From Chitinophagaceae bacterium (GTDB lineage: Bacteria > Bacteroidota > Bacteroidia > Chitinophagales > Chitinophagaceae), in NCBI GenBank assembly GCA_947457465.1, contig CANGWB010000011.1:1-61533 (forward strand): a stretch of 61,533 bases of DNA, read 5' to 3'. The position numbers and the translations under genes were made by a program. Of the stretch, positions 3,951 through 61,355 are shown in pieces (positions within the stretch are counted from its first letter, which is position 1; the number at the start of each line of letters is the position of its first letter). Below the pieces are notes generated by a model. It did no database searches, was not told the origin of the DNA, and was given only the letters and a program-made list of their open reading frames with translations.

Positions 3951-4040
3951 CAACAAAAAGTATTCATTATCAACAAGATACAGAATGGTTTGTTGCCAAA
4001 AATAACCGAAAAGACTAGCGATTCTTTTGAAACTATTCAC

Positions 4041-49566: not shown

Positions 49567-50916
49567 TTATTGATCCGGGCTGACCGACTGTTTCAATATC
49601 CTTAAATGAGAAGGATAATAATTGTTCATTCGGTTGCCAATATTTTTGAGCCATCCCATCGGCTTTCCCTGAAAGGTCGCCAACAGCCATCCTCGCTCCA
49701 GACCCGCACGATCAATAGCCCCCCGTTGCAAATAACGAACGGACTCTTCTTTATCCAACTCCAATTGAGGAAGCGTACGCTGTGCATATCGACTCAATGC
49801 CAGTGCATGGTCAGGAATCCAATCTTTTCGAGACCAGGCTCCCAAACAGGTACCCAATCGATACGGCTGACACACAGAACCAATCAGCTGAATGTCTGCC
49901 ATTCGGTCTGAAGGAAGCGCCCAACACATGTCCTTCCAGTCAATGAGTTCATGCTGATCACTCCCCCACCAATCCCCTAAGAAAGCTGTACTGGCATTCG
50001 GTTGCGACTTGATCGAAAATTTTGTACGAGTGGATAAGATATTTTCCGATGACATTTTTTGAACCGACGCGATAAAGAAACCCTCCCCCTTGATCAGATG
50101 AGGCCAACAACGATAGCCGTAATTTGTTTCAACAACACCCCATTCAGCAGGCAATTCGATCTTATTGAGAACGATGTCCCATTCTTGCTGGATCCAGGAA
50201 ACGATCTCTTCATCTTCTGCTTCCGAAAAGGAACAGGTACTATACAGCAATCGACCACCTTCTTTCAAAGAAGGCCAAATGTCTTTGAGGATCCGTCGTT
50301 GTCGGGCAGCACAATGCTCGACTGCAGATAAACTCCAATGATCCATCGCCTCTGCATCTTTTCTGAATAACCCGCTACCACTGCATGGGACATCCACGAC
50401 GATCAGATCAAAGAATCCAGTCAATTTTCCCAATACAGCCGGATCGGCCTGGGTCACCACCACATTGGCATTCCCCCATTTATCAAGGTTATCAGAGAGG
50501 ATACCCGTGCGATTTCGGATCACTTCATTGGAAACCAACAGATCATTCTCCCGGATCAGAGAAAGTAAATGGGTTGACTTTCCCCCGGGGGCGGCACAAA
50601 GGTCGAGCACACGCAACGGCTCCCCCGTTTGCATCATTGGTAAAACAAAGGCTTCCAACAATTGGCTACTCGCCTCTTGTACATAGTAAGTACCCGCGTG
50701 GAAAAGGGGGTCGAACGTAAATGATGGTCGTTTAGATAAATAAAAACCATCCCGGCTCCATGGAACGGGACTTCGATCGTACGAGAGCGAAACCGGTTTG
50801 TAGGGATTCAGTCGGATGGAAGTAGGCGGTATGGATCGATGCGCCTCTTCGAACGCAGCGATTGAGAACCCGGGTAGGCCCTCCAAGTGCTCCATGAATG
50901 AACCAGGAAATGACAC
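49567..50916 (-). CDS. RsmB/NOP-family RNA cytosine-C5 methyltransferase
   Basis: 449 residues, the RsmF-like type. LDLCAAPGGKSTHLL is the SAM site, DVPCSGSGLFRKD and YSTCSFSEAEDEE supply the two catalytic cysteines. The C-terminal ~130 residues resemble the RsmF/PUA-like RNA-binding end (RGAIDRAGLERGWLLATFQGKPMGW). Target probably 16S rRNA; the exact position is not deducible. It begins five bases after the pntB stop. Confidence 0.9.
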   Translation of the reverse strand: MSFPGSFMEHLEGLPGFSIAAFEEAHRSIPPTSIRLNPYKPVSLSYDRSPVPWSRDGFYLSKRPSFTFDPLFHAGTYYVQEASSQLLEAFVLPMMQTGEPLRVLDLCAAPGGKSTHLLSLIRENDLLVSNEVIRNRTGILSDNLDKWGNANVVVTQADPAVLGKLTGFFDLIVVDVPCSGSGLFRKDAEAMDHWSLSAVEHCAARQRRILKDIWPSLKEGGRLLYSTCSFSEAEDEEIVSWIQQEWDIVLNKIELPAEWGVVETNYGYRCWPHLIKGEGFFIASVQKMSSENILSTRTKFSIKSQPNASTAFLGDWWGSDQHELIDWKDMCWALPSDRMADIQLIGSVCQPYRLGTCLGAWSRKDWIPDHALALSRYAQRTLPQLELDKEESVRYLQRGAIDRAGLERGWLLATFQGKPMGWLKNIGNRMNNYYPSHLRILKQSVSPDQ

Positions 50917-57250: not shown

Positions 57251-57967
57251 TCAGATTGCCTGGTGATTAAACGGCTGCAAAACCATTTCACTCACTACGC
57301 CAGAGGCCGGCTGCTGGCAAAGGAACCAAATGGCTTTGGCTGCCTCCTCGCTCACGATCATCTTATCGCGCTGAACGCGCAGATCGATACCATCCCAAAA
57401 AGGTGAATCGACCCCGCCCAAATAGATCATGGTAAAGCGTATTTGCGTCCGTTTGCACTCCTCCCGTAAGCTCTGCATCATGCCAACCAGTCCGTATTTG
57501 CTGGCACTGTATGCCGCCGCCCCGGCCATGGGTACTTTTCCCAATACACCGGGTATATGAATAACTAACCCCTTACCCGCTTGCTTCATCAATGGCAAAA
57601 AGGATTTCATCAAACGAAAAGGAGCGGTCAGATTCACTTCCAGCGTTCTGTTGAAATCCTCCTCACTGAGCTGTTCCAGCGGCTTGATGATCCCGATACC
57701 GGAAGCATTGACCAACACATCGATGGTGGTGAATACAGATTGATATGACCGGAGCAGAGCCTCCACACTGGACGGATCGGTCAGATCCGTAACCGCCGTT
57801 TGTGAATTCGGTATGCTCAACTCAAGAGCTAATTCATTCAATTTGCCCGCATCGCGTCCTGAGAGAAAAAGCTCCGCCCCACTTTGACGCAACAACGCGG
57901 CCGTTTTCCTACCAATTCCTCCGGTTGCGCCCACCAACAGTACTTTTTTACCCTTAACAGACTCCAT
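57251..57967 (-). CDS. SDR family oxidoreductase next to the photolyase cassette
   Basis: 238 residues. GATGGIG at ~13-19, NASGIG near 88 and YSASKYG near 151 define the fold. Where the catalytic Ser is expected the sequence reads HIPGVLGKVP, so that residue seems to be missing. It is divergent from the photolyase-family gene with only 46 bases between start codons; SDR genes often accompany bacterial phr-type loci. Substrate unknown. The ATG at 57967 (MESVKGKKVLL) is chosen; the longer frame would cover the divergent start. Confidence 0.86.
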   Translation of the reverse strand: MESVKGKKVLLVGATGGIGRKTAALLRQSGAELFLSGRDAGKLNELALELSIPNSQTAVTDLTDPSSVEALLRSYQSVFTTIDVLVNASGIGIIKPLEQLSEEDFNRTLEVNLTAPFRLMKSFLPLMKQAGKGLVIHIPGVLGKVPMAGAAAYSASKYGLVGMMQSLREECKRTQIRFTMIYLGGVDSPFWDGIDLRVQRDKMIVSEEAAKAIWFLCQQPASGVVSEMVLQPFNHQAI

Positions 57968-58013
57968 GATGTTTTTTGATAAAACAATCCCAAGAAGCAA
58001 TTGTTCTAGAACC

Positions 58014-59492
58014 GTGTCTAAAGTCACTCTCCTATTTCCTCACCAGCTCTATCAGGAGCATCCGGCCATTCAGTGGGACGTGCCGGTCTATTTGATAGAG
58101 GAGGACCTGTATTTCACACAATATCCCTTCCATCAGGCCAAACTTGTTTTCCATCGGGCCAGTATGAGATCCTATGCAGATTCGCTGGAATCCATCGGAT
58201 ATAAGGTGCATTATGTAGCATCCGGAGCGGGATTTTCAGATGTACGGAATCTGATCAGCCATCTTGCACAGGAGGGCTTTAAGCAGTTCATTTTTTGTGA
58301 CCCTACGGATGATTGGTTGTTGCGCCGCATGAAGAGATCCATTAAAATCAATGGGCTTGAATTTGAAATGTACCCTTCCCCGAATTTTATTTGCCGCTCC
58401 GACGAAGAGGTGGCGGGCAGACGACAGCCGACCTATTTTCAAACTGATTTCTATATCCGTCAGCGGAAAAAAAAGGGCTGGTTGCTTGAAAAAGACGGGA
58501 AGCCCACAGGTGGACAATGGTCCTTCGATGCCGACAACCGAAAACCGCTGCCCAAAGGATTAGCCATTCCAAAACCTATTATCCCGAACGCAGATAAATA
58601 TCTGAATGAGGGCAAAAAATATGTGGCCGACAAGTTCCCGCTCCACTACGGCAATTGCACCGAATTTCTATTTCCGACAGACCGATCCGGCGCCCTGCAA
58701 TGGTTGGAAGATTTTCTGAAAAATCGGTTTGCCGCTTTCGGTGATTATGAAGATGCAATGCAGCCGGATGAACACTTGCTCTTTCACAGCGGTTTGACAC
58801 CCATGCTGAACGTTGGGCTTTTGTCTCCCGAAGAAGTGATCAAACGAACACTCGCCTACGCTGAAAAACACGAGATCCCGTTGGCCTCAGTAGAGGGGTT
58901 CCTCCGACAGGTAACAGGCTGGAGAGAATTCATACGTCTTGTTTATCTACAAGCCGGTCGTAAACAACGCATCACCAATTATTGGAAATTCAAGCGAAAA
59001 ATTCCTGAATCCTTCTGGGTGGGAGAAACAGGCATCATACCCGTTGATACCGTCATCAAAAAACTGCTTCGCACCGGATACTCCCATCACATCGAACGAC
59101 TGATGATCTTGGGCAACTTCATGCTTCTTTGCGAATTCGATCCGGATGAAGTATACAAGTGGTTCATGACACTTTATATCGATGCCTATGACTGGGTGAT
59201 GGTTCCGAATGTATATGGAATGACTCAATTCGCGGATGGCGGATTGATGACCACAAAACCCTACATCAGTGGCAGTAATTATCTGATGAAAATGGGCAAA
59301 TGGGAAAAAGGTGAATGGCAAGCGATCTGGGATGGTTTGTTCTGGCGATTCATGGACAAGCAACGGTCCTTTTTCACCCAGAACCCAAGATTGGGCATGC
59401 TAATTCGGAGTTGGGACAAGATGGATCCGGCAAAAAGAGAAAATCATTTGCGCACGGCAGAAAGTTTTCTCCAAAAACTTGATGCCTCGTGA
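58014..59492 (+). CDS. Cryptochrome/photolyase family protein (DPRP/PhrB type) lacking FeS cysteines
   Basis: 492 residues. An N-terminal alpha/beta antenna-type domain ([14 protein letters not shown] to ~130) precedes the helical FAD domain (~200-480): [51 protein letters not shown]. This is the layout of prokaryotic (6-4) photolyases/CryB. Those usually hold a 4Fe-4S cluster on four cysteines; here the matching stretches read TGIIPVD and GKWEKGEW with no cysteine. Blue-light DNA repair or sensing is expected; which lesion is uncertain. Start GTG at 58014. Its stop overlaps the DUF2256 start. Confidence 0.9.
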
Positions 59493-59662
59493 AAGCCATT
59501 CCAAAAAATCAGTTGCCTAGTAAGATCTGTCCGGTCTGTGATCGCCCATTTCAATGGCGTAAAAAATGGGCTAGGGATTGGGAATCAGTCATCTATTGCA
59601 GTGAGCGTTGCCGACGTCAGCCTAAACACAAGTCAACTACTACTCAACCATCCGGCCGGTAG
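59489..59662 (+). CDS. DUF2256 small zinc-finger-like protein
   Basis: 57-residue protein in the gap between the two photolyase-related genes. [15 protein letters not shown] and YCSERCRR give a CxxC...CxxxC metal site, the DUF2256 signature. The family is commonly found beside cryptochrome/photolyase genes, and its function is not known. It starts with GTG inside the GTGA overlap with the photolyase stop (59489-59492), so translation is coupled; the next gene begins 14 bases after its stop. Confidence 0.9.
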
Positions 59663-59676
59663 CTTGTTGTAATGGT

Positions 59677-60813
59677 GTGAATCAAGCCTTCCCTACCGAC
59701 ATTCCATCCATTCTCCAGCGAATCGAGGACATAGACCCCGAGTCGTATGCCCGCACGCGAAATTTCAAGAATGGTTCGGTCAGCCACCTATCCCCTTACC
59801 TCTCCAGGGGGGTGATCAGTACCAAACAAGTACTGGAATCGTTGATCAGCAAAGGAATCGAGTGGACAACTGCTCAAAAATTCGTTCAAGAACTCGCCTG
59901 GAGAGAATTCTATCAACGTCTTTGGCAAAGTTTAGAGGATGATCTTTTTGAGGACATCCTGCAGATGCGATCGGGTGTAAGCAATCGAATGATGCCGACA
60001 TCTCTTTTAAATGGATCCACCGGGATCACAGCTATCGATGAAGGTATTCGGGAATTGAAACGCAATGGTTACATGCACAACCACCTACGGATGTATGTAG
60101 CTAGTTTAGCTTGTAATCTGGCAAAATCACATTGGCCGATGCCCGCTGCCTGGATGTATTACCATTTGCTGGATGGTGACCTAGCCAGTAACACCTGCAG
60201 TTGGCAATGGGTGGCTGGTACGTTCAATGGACGTAAATATTATTGCAATCAGCAAAACATCGACCGCTACTTTCAAACCGATCAACGAGGCTCATTCCTG
60301 GATCAATCCTACGAGGCTATACCCAAGATGCCCGTGCCGGATACCTTGCGTGAATTGACCTCATTCCAAGAGGTCATCCGATTGCCGAACACACCAATTC
60401 CACAACTCGATCCCTCCAAGCCATTGTACCTGTATAACAGTTACAACCTGGATCCTAATTGGGATAAATCAATAGATGCGAATCGACTTTTATTGTTAGA
60501 GCCCTCTCATTTCAGGCGGCACCCTGTGAGTGATCAGGTCATGGATTTCATTCTTTCGCTGGCCAATAATATAGACGGCATACAAGTATATGTGGGTGAG
60601 GTTAATTCGATCCCCGAATTGCGTCGTTTTTCTCAGATCATTTCTAAAGAACATCCAGCTTTCCGCCATTATCCAGGCATCAAGCAGGAACGCGACTGGA
60701 TGTTTCCAGGTTTATCGGTGCGCCACACTTCTTTCTTCCGCTTTTGGAAACAAGCCGAACGGAAAGCCAAGAACGGATTTGCCAAGAAAGGCATCTCCAT
60801 TCCCGTTTCCTAA
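59677..60813 (+). CDS. FAD-binding photolyase-domain protein with the alpha/beta domain at the C-terminus
   Basis: 378 residues. The helical FAD domain of photolyases comes first (~35-205): SPYLSRGVIS, ELAWREFYQRL, RELKRNGYMHNHLRMYVAS and LLDGDLASNTCSWQWVAG, the FAD-contact and electron-transfer Trp region. No antenna domain precedes it. Instead the last ~135 residues look alpha/beta (LYLYNSYNL; RLLLLEPSHFRRHP; GIQVYVGEV) and recall the N-terminal domain of the neighbouring PhrB-type protein, that is, a reversed order. Start is GTG at 59677. Probably co-transcribed with the two upstream genes. Function unknown; light-dependent repair or signalling is inferred. Confidence 0.85.
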   Translation: MNQAFPTDIPSILQRIEDIDPESYARTRNFKNGSVSHLSPYLSRGVISTKQVLESLISKGIEWTTAQKFVQELAWREFYQRLWQSLEDDLFEDILQMRSGVSNRMMPTSLLNGSTGITAIDEGIRELKRNGYMHNHLRMYVASLACNLAKSHWPMPAAWMYYHLLDGDLASNTCSWQWVAGTFNGRKYYCNQQNIDRYFQTDQRGSFLDQSYEAIPKMPVPDTLRELTSFQEVIRLPNTPIPQLDPSKPLYLYNSYNLDPNWDKSIDANRLLLLEPSHFRRHPVSDQVMDFILSLANNIDGIQVYVGEVNSIPELRRFSQIISKEHPAFRHYPGIKQERDWMFPGLSVRHTSFFRFWKQAERKAKNGFAKKGISIPVS

Positions 60814-60839: not shown

Positions 60840-61355
60840 ATGCAGTCAAAATCTCCTTCGGACAGTCTAACCATTATGACAGAGCTGGTGTTGCCAAATG
60901 ACACCAATCTATTTGGCAATCTAATGGGTGGTCGACTGATGTACTGGATGGACATCGCAGCGGCTTTATCGGCTCAAAAACACTGCAATGCACCCGTAGT
61001 AACAGCATCGGTCGATAATATTTCTTTTGAAAATCCGATCAAACTGGGAAATGTCGTGCACATGGAAGCACGCATCACCCGCGCCTTCAACACTTCTATG
61101 GAGATCCATTTAAAAGTTTGGGGGGAAGATCTGACTCAACAATACAAATACAAAAGCAACGAGGCTTATTATACGTTCGTTGCTCTGGATCCCAACCGAA
61201 AGCCACGTCCGGTAGCAAGCGTATTGCCAGAGACTGCTGAGGAGAAGAAACTATTTGATGGCGCCCTTCGTCGCCGGCAGTTACGTTTGATCTTAGGGGG
61301 TAAACTTCACCCGGATGATGCGGCTGAATTGCGCGCATTGTTTGTGAAAGATTGA
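60840..61355 (+). CDS. Acyl-CoA thioesterase (hot-dog fold)
   Basis: 171 residues of the YciA/acyl-CoA hydrolase type. NLFGNLMGGRLMYWMDIAA provides the conserved Asn/Asp and Gly-Gly active-site segment, VTASVDNISFENPIKLGNVV the second hot-dog strand. Cytosolic hydrolysis of acyl-CoA; chain length preference unknown. The frame is open upstream within the FAD gene, but the promoter box at 60818 fixes the ATG at 60840. Its stop abuts the convergent PlsC stop. Confidence 0.9.
   Translation: MQSKSPSDSLTIMTELVLPNDTNLFGNLMGGRLMYWMDIAAALSAQKHCNAPVVTASVDNISFENPIKLGNVVHMEARITRAFNTSMEIHLKVWGEDLTQQYKYKSNEAYYTFVALDPNRKPRPVASVLPETAEEKKLFDGALRRRQLRLILGGKLHPDDAAELRALFVKD

Follow-up and report, generated by a model that had tools for sequence, protein, structure and literature searches.

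Photolyases that carry the flavin adenine dinucleotide (FAD) domain first and a second domain behind it were reportedly described by Emmerich et al. in 2020 as NewPHL, SPL or Phr7. A reversed domain order is also reported for NewPHL/Phr7 and Phr6 in the available parts of PMC9426592 and PMC13274461; the latter lists A8LJA9 and M7YZC8 as accessions for characterized NewPHL sequences. For the PhrB family, the available text of PMC4619345 states that (6-4) repair by PhrB requires His366 and Tyr424, that the Fe-S cluster is apparently needed for PhrB stability, and that homologues without the cluster-binding cysteines are also without Tyr460. Two photolyase genes in one UV-B-induced operon have been described in Synechococcus sp. 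PCC 7335, where the photolyases are of other classes and DUF2256 is unmentioned in the portion of the article available (PMC9649867). Here we analyze a three-gene cassette on contig CANGWB010000011.1 of a Chitinophagaceae bacterium (assembly GCA_947457465.1), the whole 61,533-nucleotide stretch being referred to as the window. A PhrB-type gene of the DPRP family is followed by a gene for a small DUF2256 protein and by a gene for an inverted-topology photolyase homolog, here referred to as PHL. With moderate confidence, we read the cassette as one photorepair operon encoding two photolyases for complementary lesions plus a photolyase-associated zinc finger. Each enzyme belongs to a known kind, and no description of the gene combination, the Fe-S-less partner or a dyad in the promoter spacer was found in the literature searched, which did not include the NewPHL papers themselves.

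By its sequence, the first protein is an Fe-S-less subtype of prokaryotic (6-4) photolyase. It has both the DPRP and the FAD domain, residues 17-491 of 492 align with CryB (3zxs, 2e-86), and it matches the Vibrio (6-4) photolyase (5.1e-85) and PhrB (4dja, 1.4e-75). Residues H359, L363, Y417 and Y423, with PhrB numbering transferred via the CryB alignment, correspond to PhrB His366, Leu370, Tyr424 and Tyr430, and the equivalents of Met410, Trp342 and Trp390 are also kept. All four Fe-S cysteines are absent in alignments with CryB and others as well as with 117 other DPRP sequences (including a partial copy of the window's own gene), in agreement with the preliminary description of this locus, made from the DNA alone, which had proposed an FeS-less PhrB/CryB-like protein. 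Since the four [4Fe-4S]-binding cysteines that mark FeS-BCP are absent, we do not file the protein as an FeS-BCP proper. It shares with PhrB, CryB and the Vibrio enzyme the N-terminal DPRP domain and the lesion-contact residues, but differs from them in lacking the cysteines together with ~10 residues between them, and in having Phe at the Tyr460 position, as do 42 of the 53 Fe-S-less sequences (Tyr in 6, gap in 5). Fe-S-less (6-4) photolyases are known; PromaPL (Phr2 of Prochlorococcus) likewise has a PhrB-type domain and no Fe-S ligands according to the available sections of PMC9178010 and PMC9426592, but is of cyanobacterial origin and was compared by description only.

The loss of these cysteines was all or nothing. 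Among 118 distinct DPRP sequences from 101 genomes (partial duplicates from some genomes included), 65 contained all four, 53 contained none and no sequence had a partial set. By genome, the set was complete in 61 of the 101 Bacteroidota and missing in 40, with none mixed; the class was read for 101 of the 132 DPRP genomes, the other 31 being left out. In a quick tree computed without the Fe-S columns, to which a warning of long-branch attraction attaches, a single change divides the two states (support 100). Equivalents of His366 and Leu370 were present in 118/118 sequences and those of Tyr424 and Tyr430 in 115, the remaining three being gapped.

The third protein, PHL, has the FAD domain at residues 69-209 and a conserved second domain of ~165 residues behind it, which is the domain order of NewPHL. 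The preliminary description had called it a separate FAD-domain protein; the FAD domain is there (PF03441), and the C-terminal domain has to be added. This domain was conserved in 18 genomes and 80 named loci, and the idea of a truncated or lone FAD domain was rejected. The predicted structure (pLDDT 91.6) matched photolyases or cryptochromes in 50 of the 50 PDB entries listed, with 202-262 columns aligned. In profile comparison the C-terminal domain aligned with the N-terminal domain of class I photolyases and cryptochromes (hhalign 66%, E 5.5e-5, 9% identity; reversed control 0.3%) and is probably the displaced alpha/beta photolyase domain; no homology was seen with the N-terminal domain of PhrB-type proteins (0.1%). 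In alignment-mapped positions of 99 PHL sequences, the CPD-type (cyclobutane pyrimidine dimer) residues were Asn in 99, Trp in 99, Glu in 95 and Met in 95. Together, these features suggest a NewPHL-like photolyase of inverted topology, with predicted activity on CPDs.

Full-length PHL homologs occur in 18 of 395 Bacteroidota genomes, the window's own included, at a cut-off of E 4e-78 or better; the next match was at 1e-33 and the rest were mostly class I photolyase-like. In one of the 18 (G150) the homolog was counted from two segments of a single open frame. Scanning named genomes recovered at least 583 relatives, and all but five titles among the best 80 are Bacteroidota groups. As proxies for NewPHL we used plasmid proteins annotated as 'FAD-binding domain-containing'. 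The PHL FAD-domain profile matched four of them (three alphaproteobacterial, one from Deinococcus) at 3e-46. For the C-terminal domain, no similarity was detectable to the three alphaproteobacterial (0.1%) or the Deinococcus (0.8%) proxies, and in a quick tree the 17 PHL rows formed their own clade (support 94), with eight proxies grouped weakly (47). Two Deinococcus plasmid proteins (L294 3881-5251 and L298 2357-3730) have, by reading, Fe-S-like cysteines and resemble cyanobacterial Phr6, with the reversed photolyase domain order checked for L294. A beta-carotene dioxygenase gene (PF15461) lies directly ahead of PHL in one relative (L247 3791-4738), and open reading frames similar to it were seen in 5 of the 80 named PHL loci.

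The middle gene had been described as encoding a 57-residue CxxC...CxxxC DUF2256 protein, and the PF10013 match (Table 1) and the four cysteines agree with this. C14, C17, C37, C41, W27 and W31 were invariant in the 68 sequences aligned out of ~100. Weak Pfam leads, below the cut-off, were Ecl1 (2.6e-4) and YacG (0.03). The predicted fold (pLDDT 77.3 overall, pTM 0.50) had no significant PDB match by Foldseek; gyrase-bound YacG came top (E 0.48), and an FCS finger ranked sixth. PMC4047054 assigns DUF2256, in the part available, to the TRASH group or clan of zinc fingers. The conserved WRKKW core is DUF2256's own. The available part of PMC11796252 lists DUF2256 among frequent small bacterial protein families without function. 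That DUF2256 is known as a photolyase neighbor, as previously stated, could not be traced to these two sources, the available portions of which do not mention photolyases for it.

Other contexts of DUF2256 were observed in passing. One copy (L093 3498-3890) has a C-terminal extension that by reading resembles DUF3253, and DUF2256 and DUF3253 are adjacent genes on a Sphingobium plasmid (L318). On a Pantoea plasmid (L327 1879-3168) a gene for lumazine synthase, which makes the antenna pigment of PhrB-type photolyases, lies two genes ahead of DUF2256. On a Thioclava plasmid (L316 3001-3797) DUF2256 immediately precedes an SOS response-associated peptidase gene, another link to DNA damage.

The absence of conserved linkage in relatives had been named as grounds for abandoning the proposal. 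That refutation failed, since the linkage extends well outside this genome, with several arrangements of the genes and a common strand. In the 395-genome draw, DUF2256 was present in 125 genomes, DPRP in 132, both in 112 and neither in 250 (Fisher p 1.6e-61, uncorrected for kinship), with 13 genomes containing DUF2256 without DPRP and 20 the reverse. Among 14 named control genomes, DUF2256 was found only in Caulobacter and Synechococcus elongatus, both with DPRP, while Haloferax had DPRP without DUF2256. With 6 kb as the limit for a close pair, DUF2256 and DPRP were close in 39 of the 112 genomes, spanning 20 genera and 11 families and often overlapping or within ~160 bases; in the other 73 they were not within 6 kb, many on separate contigs. 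Close pairs were same-stranded throughout (DUF2256-DPRP 39/39, DUF2256-PHL 12/12, PHL-DPRP 12/12), and the 80 named loci held a single opposite-strand exception (L265). All 18 PHL genomes also have DPRP and DUF2256; each of these two genes is found at most 6 kb from PHL in 12 genomes, and all three are together in 10. PHL favors the Fe-S-less DPRP (15 of 40 such genomes vs 3 of 61 Fe-S genomes). DUF2256 was also present in 54 of the 57 genomes with CRYP, a third cryptochrome/photolyase class counted at E 1e-60 or better, and within 6 kb of it in 27. At 86 DUF2256 loci there was no DPRP gene within 6 kb; 61 of them were inspected, and 29 of the 61 had a photolyase-like open reading frame inside the 1.5-3 kb flank examined.

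The named loci were the best 80 of at least 583 PHL relatives. Here the DPRP type was assigned from scores instead of from the cysteines, the family of neighbors was checked on one or two representatives each, and one locus (L217) is probably from the same genome as G080 of the draw. In the 49 loci where the sequence extends 4.8 kb or more to each side of PHL, a same-strand DPRP or DUF2256 was found in 38 and both in 24 (DUF2256 in 32, DPRP in 30), along with DUF2805 in 26, flavin reductase in 14 and a cryptochrome/photolyase gene in 11. A common order was DUF2805, PHL, cryptochrome or flavin reductase, DUF2256, DPRP. In ten loci a divergent SDR gene similar to the window's precedes DPRP; the complete order seen in the window, with DUF2256 and the downstream thioesterase, is found in four of them, and one more has the thioesterase reversed.

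The spacer between the SDR and PhrB-type genes contains a dyad, AACAA-N13-TTGTT, which aligned across 12 hand-picked divergent spacers (12 of the 13 shown, L213 being excluded; trimmed by eye). Across the 80 named loci we counted 15 exact copies with spacing 13, compared with 2-9 for each of the spacings 4-12 and 14-23. Of the 15 copies, 11 sit at a DPRP start, one before a flavin reductase, one before a DUF2805-PHL pair and two near neither. In an unselected test, 13 of 80 distinct stretches upstream of window-type DPRP contained the exact dyad, against a mean of 0.40 and a maximum of 2 for 20 other spacings, and the runner-up among 160 half-site words of similar composition scored 3; this test misses sites deep within long open frames (L212, L214). 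Allowing one mismatch weakens the contrast (18/80 vs mean 5.95, max 11). Of the 13 carriers, four are genomes from the same family as the window, three bear the name Chitinophagaceae, and for six no family is stated. Exact dyads also precede 12 of 16 SDR genes, largely at the same sites as the DPRP ones, 4 of 48 flavin reductases, 2 of 66 DUF2805 and 1 of 11 class I genes, but none of 42 low-scoring photolyase or 15 thioesterase genes. Three exact dyads were seen in the window vs 0.08 expected by shuffles; the two outside the spacer (3972-3994 and 50106-50128) are not tied to any gene start. The dyad may be an operator or a set of paired promoter elements.

Elsewhere in the genome (2.06 Mb, 46 contigs), at ~81149-82091 of contig C5, DUF2805/TIGR03643 and flavin reductase open reading frames overlap as a pair (L304 4650-5018 and 4948-5592), and a one-mismatch dyad ends 23 bases ahead of the flavin reductase start. 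Contig C3 encodes the genome's one further FAD_binding_7 protein, which resembles class I photolyases. Since DUF2805 and flavin reductase recur in relatives' photolyase islands, the organism seems to keep its photorepair island split, with the cassette on C11, the flavin reductase-DUF2805 pair on C5 and the class I photolyase on C3.

Under the photorepair reading, the three genes would be transcribed together, and in light both enzymes would use reduced FAD, the first to split (6-4) photoproducts and PHL to split cyclobutane dimers, perhaps chiefly in single-stranded DNA by analogy with characterized NewPHLs. DUF2256, translated between them, would be a small accessory protein of the zinc-finger kind that serves photolyases in general; it would most likely bind a photolyase or its DNA and help folding, targeting or turnover. 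The spacer dyad may let one regulator control the cassette, the SDR gene and, elsewhere, the flavin reductase-DUF2805 pair. A more specific joint proposal, which we put forward tentatively and consider doubtful, is that DUF2256 is a dedicated accessory zinc finger of bacterial photolyases with a YacG-like grip, and that Chitinophagaceae-type bacteria have a photorepair regulon responding to light or UV, with the dyad as its operator and with the two photolyases, the SDR and a flavin reductase that provides reduced flavin as its members.

Several observations weigh against the operon as drawn here. The co-occurrence counts ignore relatedness between genomes, and 66 of the 125 DUF2256 genes have no DPRP, CRYP or PHL gene within 6 kb. 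DUF2256 is absent between DPRP and PHL in 5 of the 10 SDR-type loci. Among 134 plasmid records matching DUF2256, we sampled 13 (one per genus from 60 listed, annotated ones preferred, hence non-random; 12 genera outside Bacteroidota), and an annotated photolyase gene lay within 3 kb in five genera (Salinivibrio, Acinetobacter, Sphingomonas, where the genes face each other, Novosphingobium and Rhizobium) and in none of the other eight, an upper bound given incomplete plasmid gene tables. These results, with its near-equal co-occurrence with Fe-S-bearing relatives and its proximity to CRYP, go against the earlier suggestion that DUF2256 is tied to this particular flavoprotein pair. At the position matching the outer Trp of the class I chain (Trp314 in the Anacystis enzyme), 78 of 99 PHL sequences have V or I, and Tyr replaces Trp342 in 35 of 53 Fe-S-less DPRP sequences, the window retaining Trp; because of these replacements, photoreduction may differ. 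Finally, the exact dyad was found before 0/98 PHL, 0/139 DUF2256, 0/40 CRYP and 0/62 Fe-S-type (low-scoring) DPRP genes, and a genome-wide regulon defined by pattern alone was rejected, with no whole-genome enrichment (5 exact sites vs 14 for the backwards pattern).

The scattered DUF2256 copies would fit an explanation by shared niche only, in which sunlit bacteria gather photolyase genes in islands that move as units, with DUF2256 as a generic small zinc finger carried along: just 59 of 125 copies have a member of the three photolyase classes within 6 kb, most sampled plasmid copies have no annotated photolyase neighbor, gene order is variable and DUF2256 is sometimes missing. However, the uniform strand and tight spacing of the close pairs, their spread over many genera and families, and the persistence of co-occurrence in genomes where the genes lie apart argue against it, and we consider it unlikely. 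Less probable still is a role for DUF2256 as a maturation factor loading an Fe-S cluster or other metal into PhrB-type photolyases. Its four invariant cysteines and the presence of DPRP in 112 of 125 DUF2256 genomes would be in line with this, but DUF2256 occurs in 31 of 40 genomes with Fe-S-less DPRP vs 55 of 61 with the Fe-S type (Fisher p 0.09), and 13 genomes have it without any DPRP. Because its presence does not clearly track the Fe-S cysteines, loading of the cluster is disfavored, and we judge the maturation role as a whole very improbable.

The preliminary description had also suggested a complex or a repair/sensing pair. The repair half is supported by the residues retained, (6-4)-type in one protein and CPD-type in the other; neither a complex nor sensing is supported so far. 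In a sensing pair, one or both flavoproteins would be blue-light cryptochromes, with DUF2256 as a DNA-binding or output partner controlling, for example, the SDR gene. CryB, a homolog of the first protein, regulates gene expression in Rhodobacter according to the available part of PMC9178010, and the recurring dyad in the shared promoter spacer could serve such control. Yet both proteins retain, throughout their clades, the residues that contact the lesion in repair, neither flavoprotein has a Pfam output domain, and DUF2256 is also found away from such genes, which makes this alternative improbable.

The features of the locus are collected in Table 1. The anatomy given earlier, including the 46-base divergent spacer, the GTGA overlap and the 14-base gap, was exact to the base: the GTG of DUF2256 overlaps the stop of the PhrB-type gene and PHL starts 14 bases after DUF2256. 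GTG is the start codon of all three genes. An alternative ATG for the PhrB-type gene at 57966 would overlap the SDR start, and the GTG at 58014 is supported since in 11 of 12 relatives shown DPRP starts, as in the window, 5-8 residues ahead of a LIFPHQL-type motif (missed by the script in the twelfth, L102). The thioesterase gene, found on the same strand in 9 of the 80 named loci, is probably outside the function of the cassette and a neighbor kept in some relatives.

Table 1. Positions of the cassette genes, their domains and adjacent features in the window.
Feature	Position	Strand	Evidence or remark
SDR oxidoreductase	57251..57967	-	PF00106 4.1e-44; divergent from cassette
Divergent spacer, 46 bp	57968..58013		between SDR and PhrB-type gene
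Dyad AACAA-N13-TTGTT, candidate operator or paired promoter element	57983..58005		inside divergent spacer
PhrB-type gene (Fe-S-less prokaryotic (6-4)-type photolyase, DPRP/PhrB family), 492 aa	58014..59492	+	PF04244 2.9e-52
DUF2256, zinc-finger-like, 57 aa	59489..59662	+	PF10013 4e-22; 78.5 bits vs cut-off 25
PHL (inverted-topology, NewPHL-like photolyase), 378 aa	59677..60813	+	PF03441 3.8e-24, residues 69-209
FAD_binding_7 domain of PHL	59881..60303	+	PF03441
PHL C-terminal domain, probable displaced alpha/beta photolyase domain	60319..60810	+	hhalign
Thioesterase (4HBT)	60840..61355	+	PF03061 7e-17; downstream of PHL

The cassette points to a large natural clade of DPRP proteins living without the Fe-S cluster, which helps in asking what purpose the cluster serves. 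Because the cassette links DUF2256 to two photolyases of complementary type, and does so in cultured Bacteroidota such as the Dyadobacter and Cellulophaga strains of L241 and L237, it would allow a direct test of the function of DUF2256.

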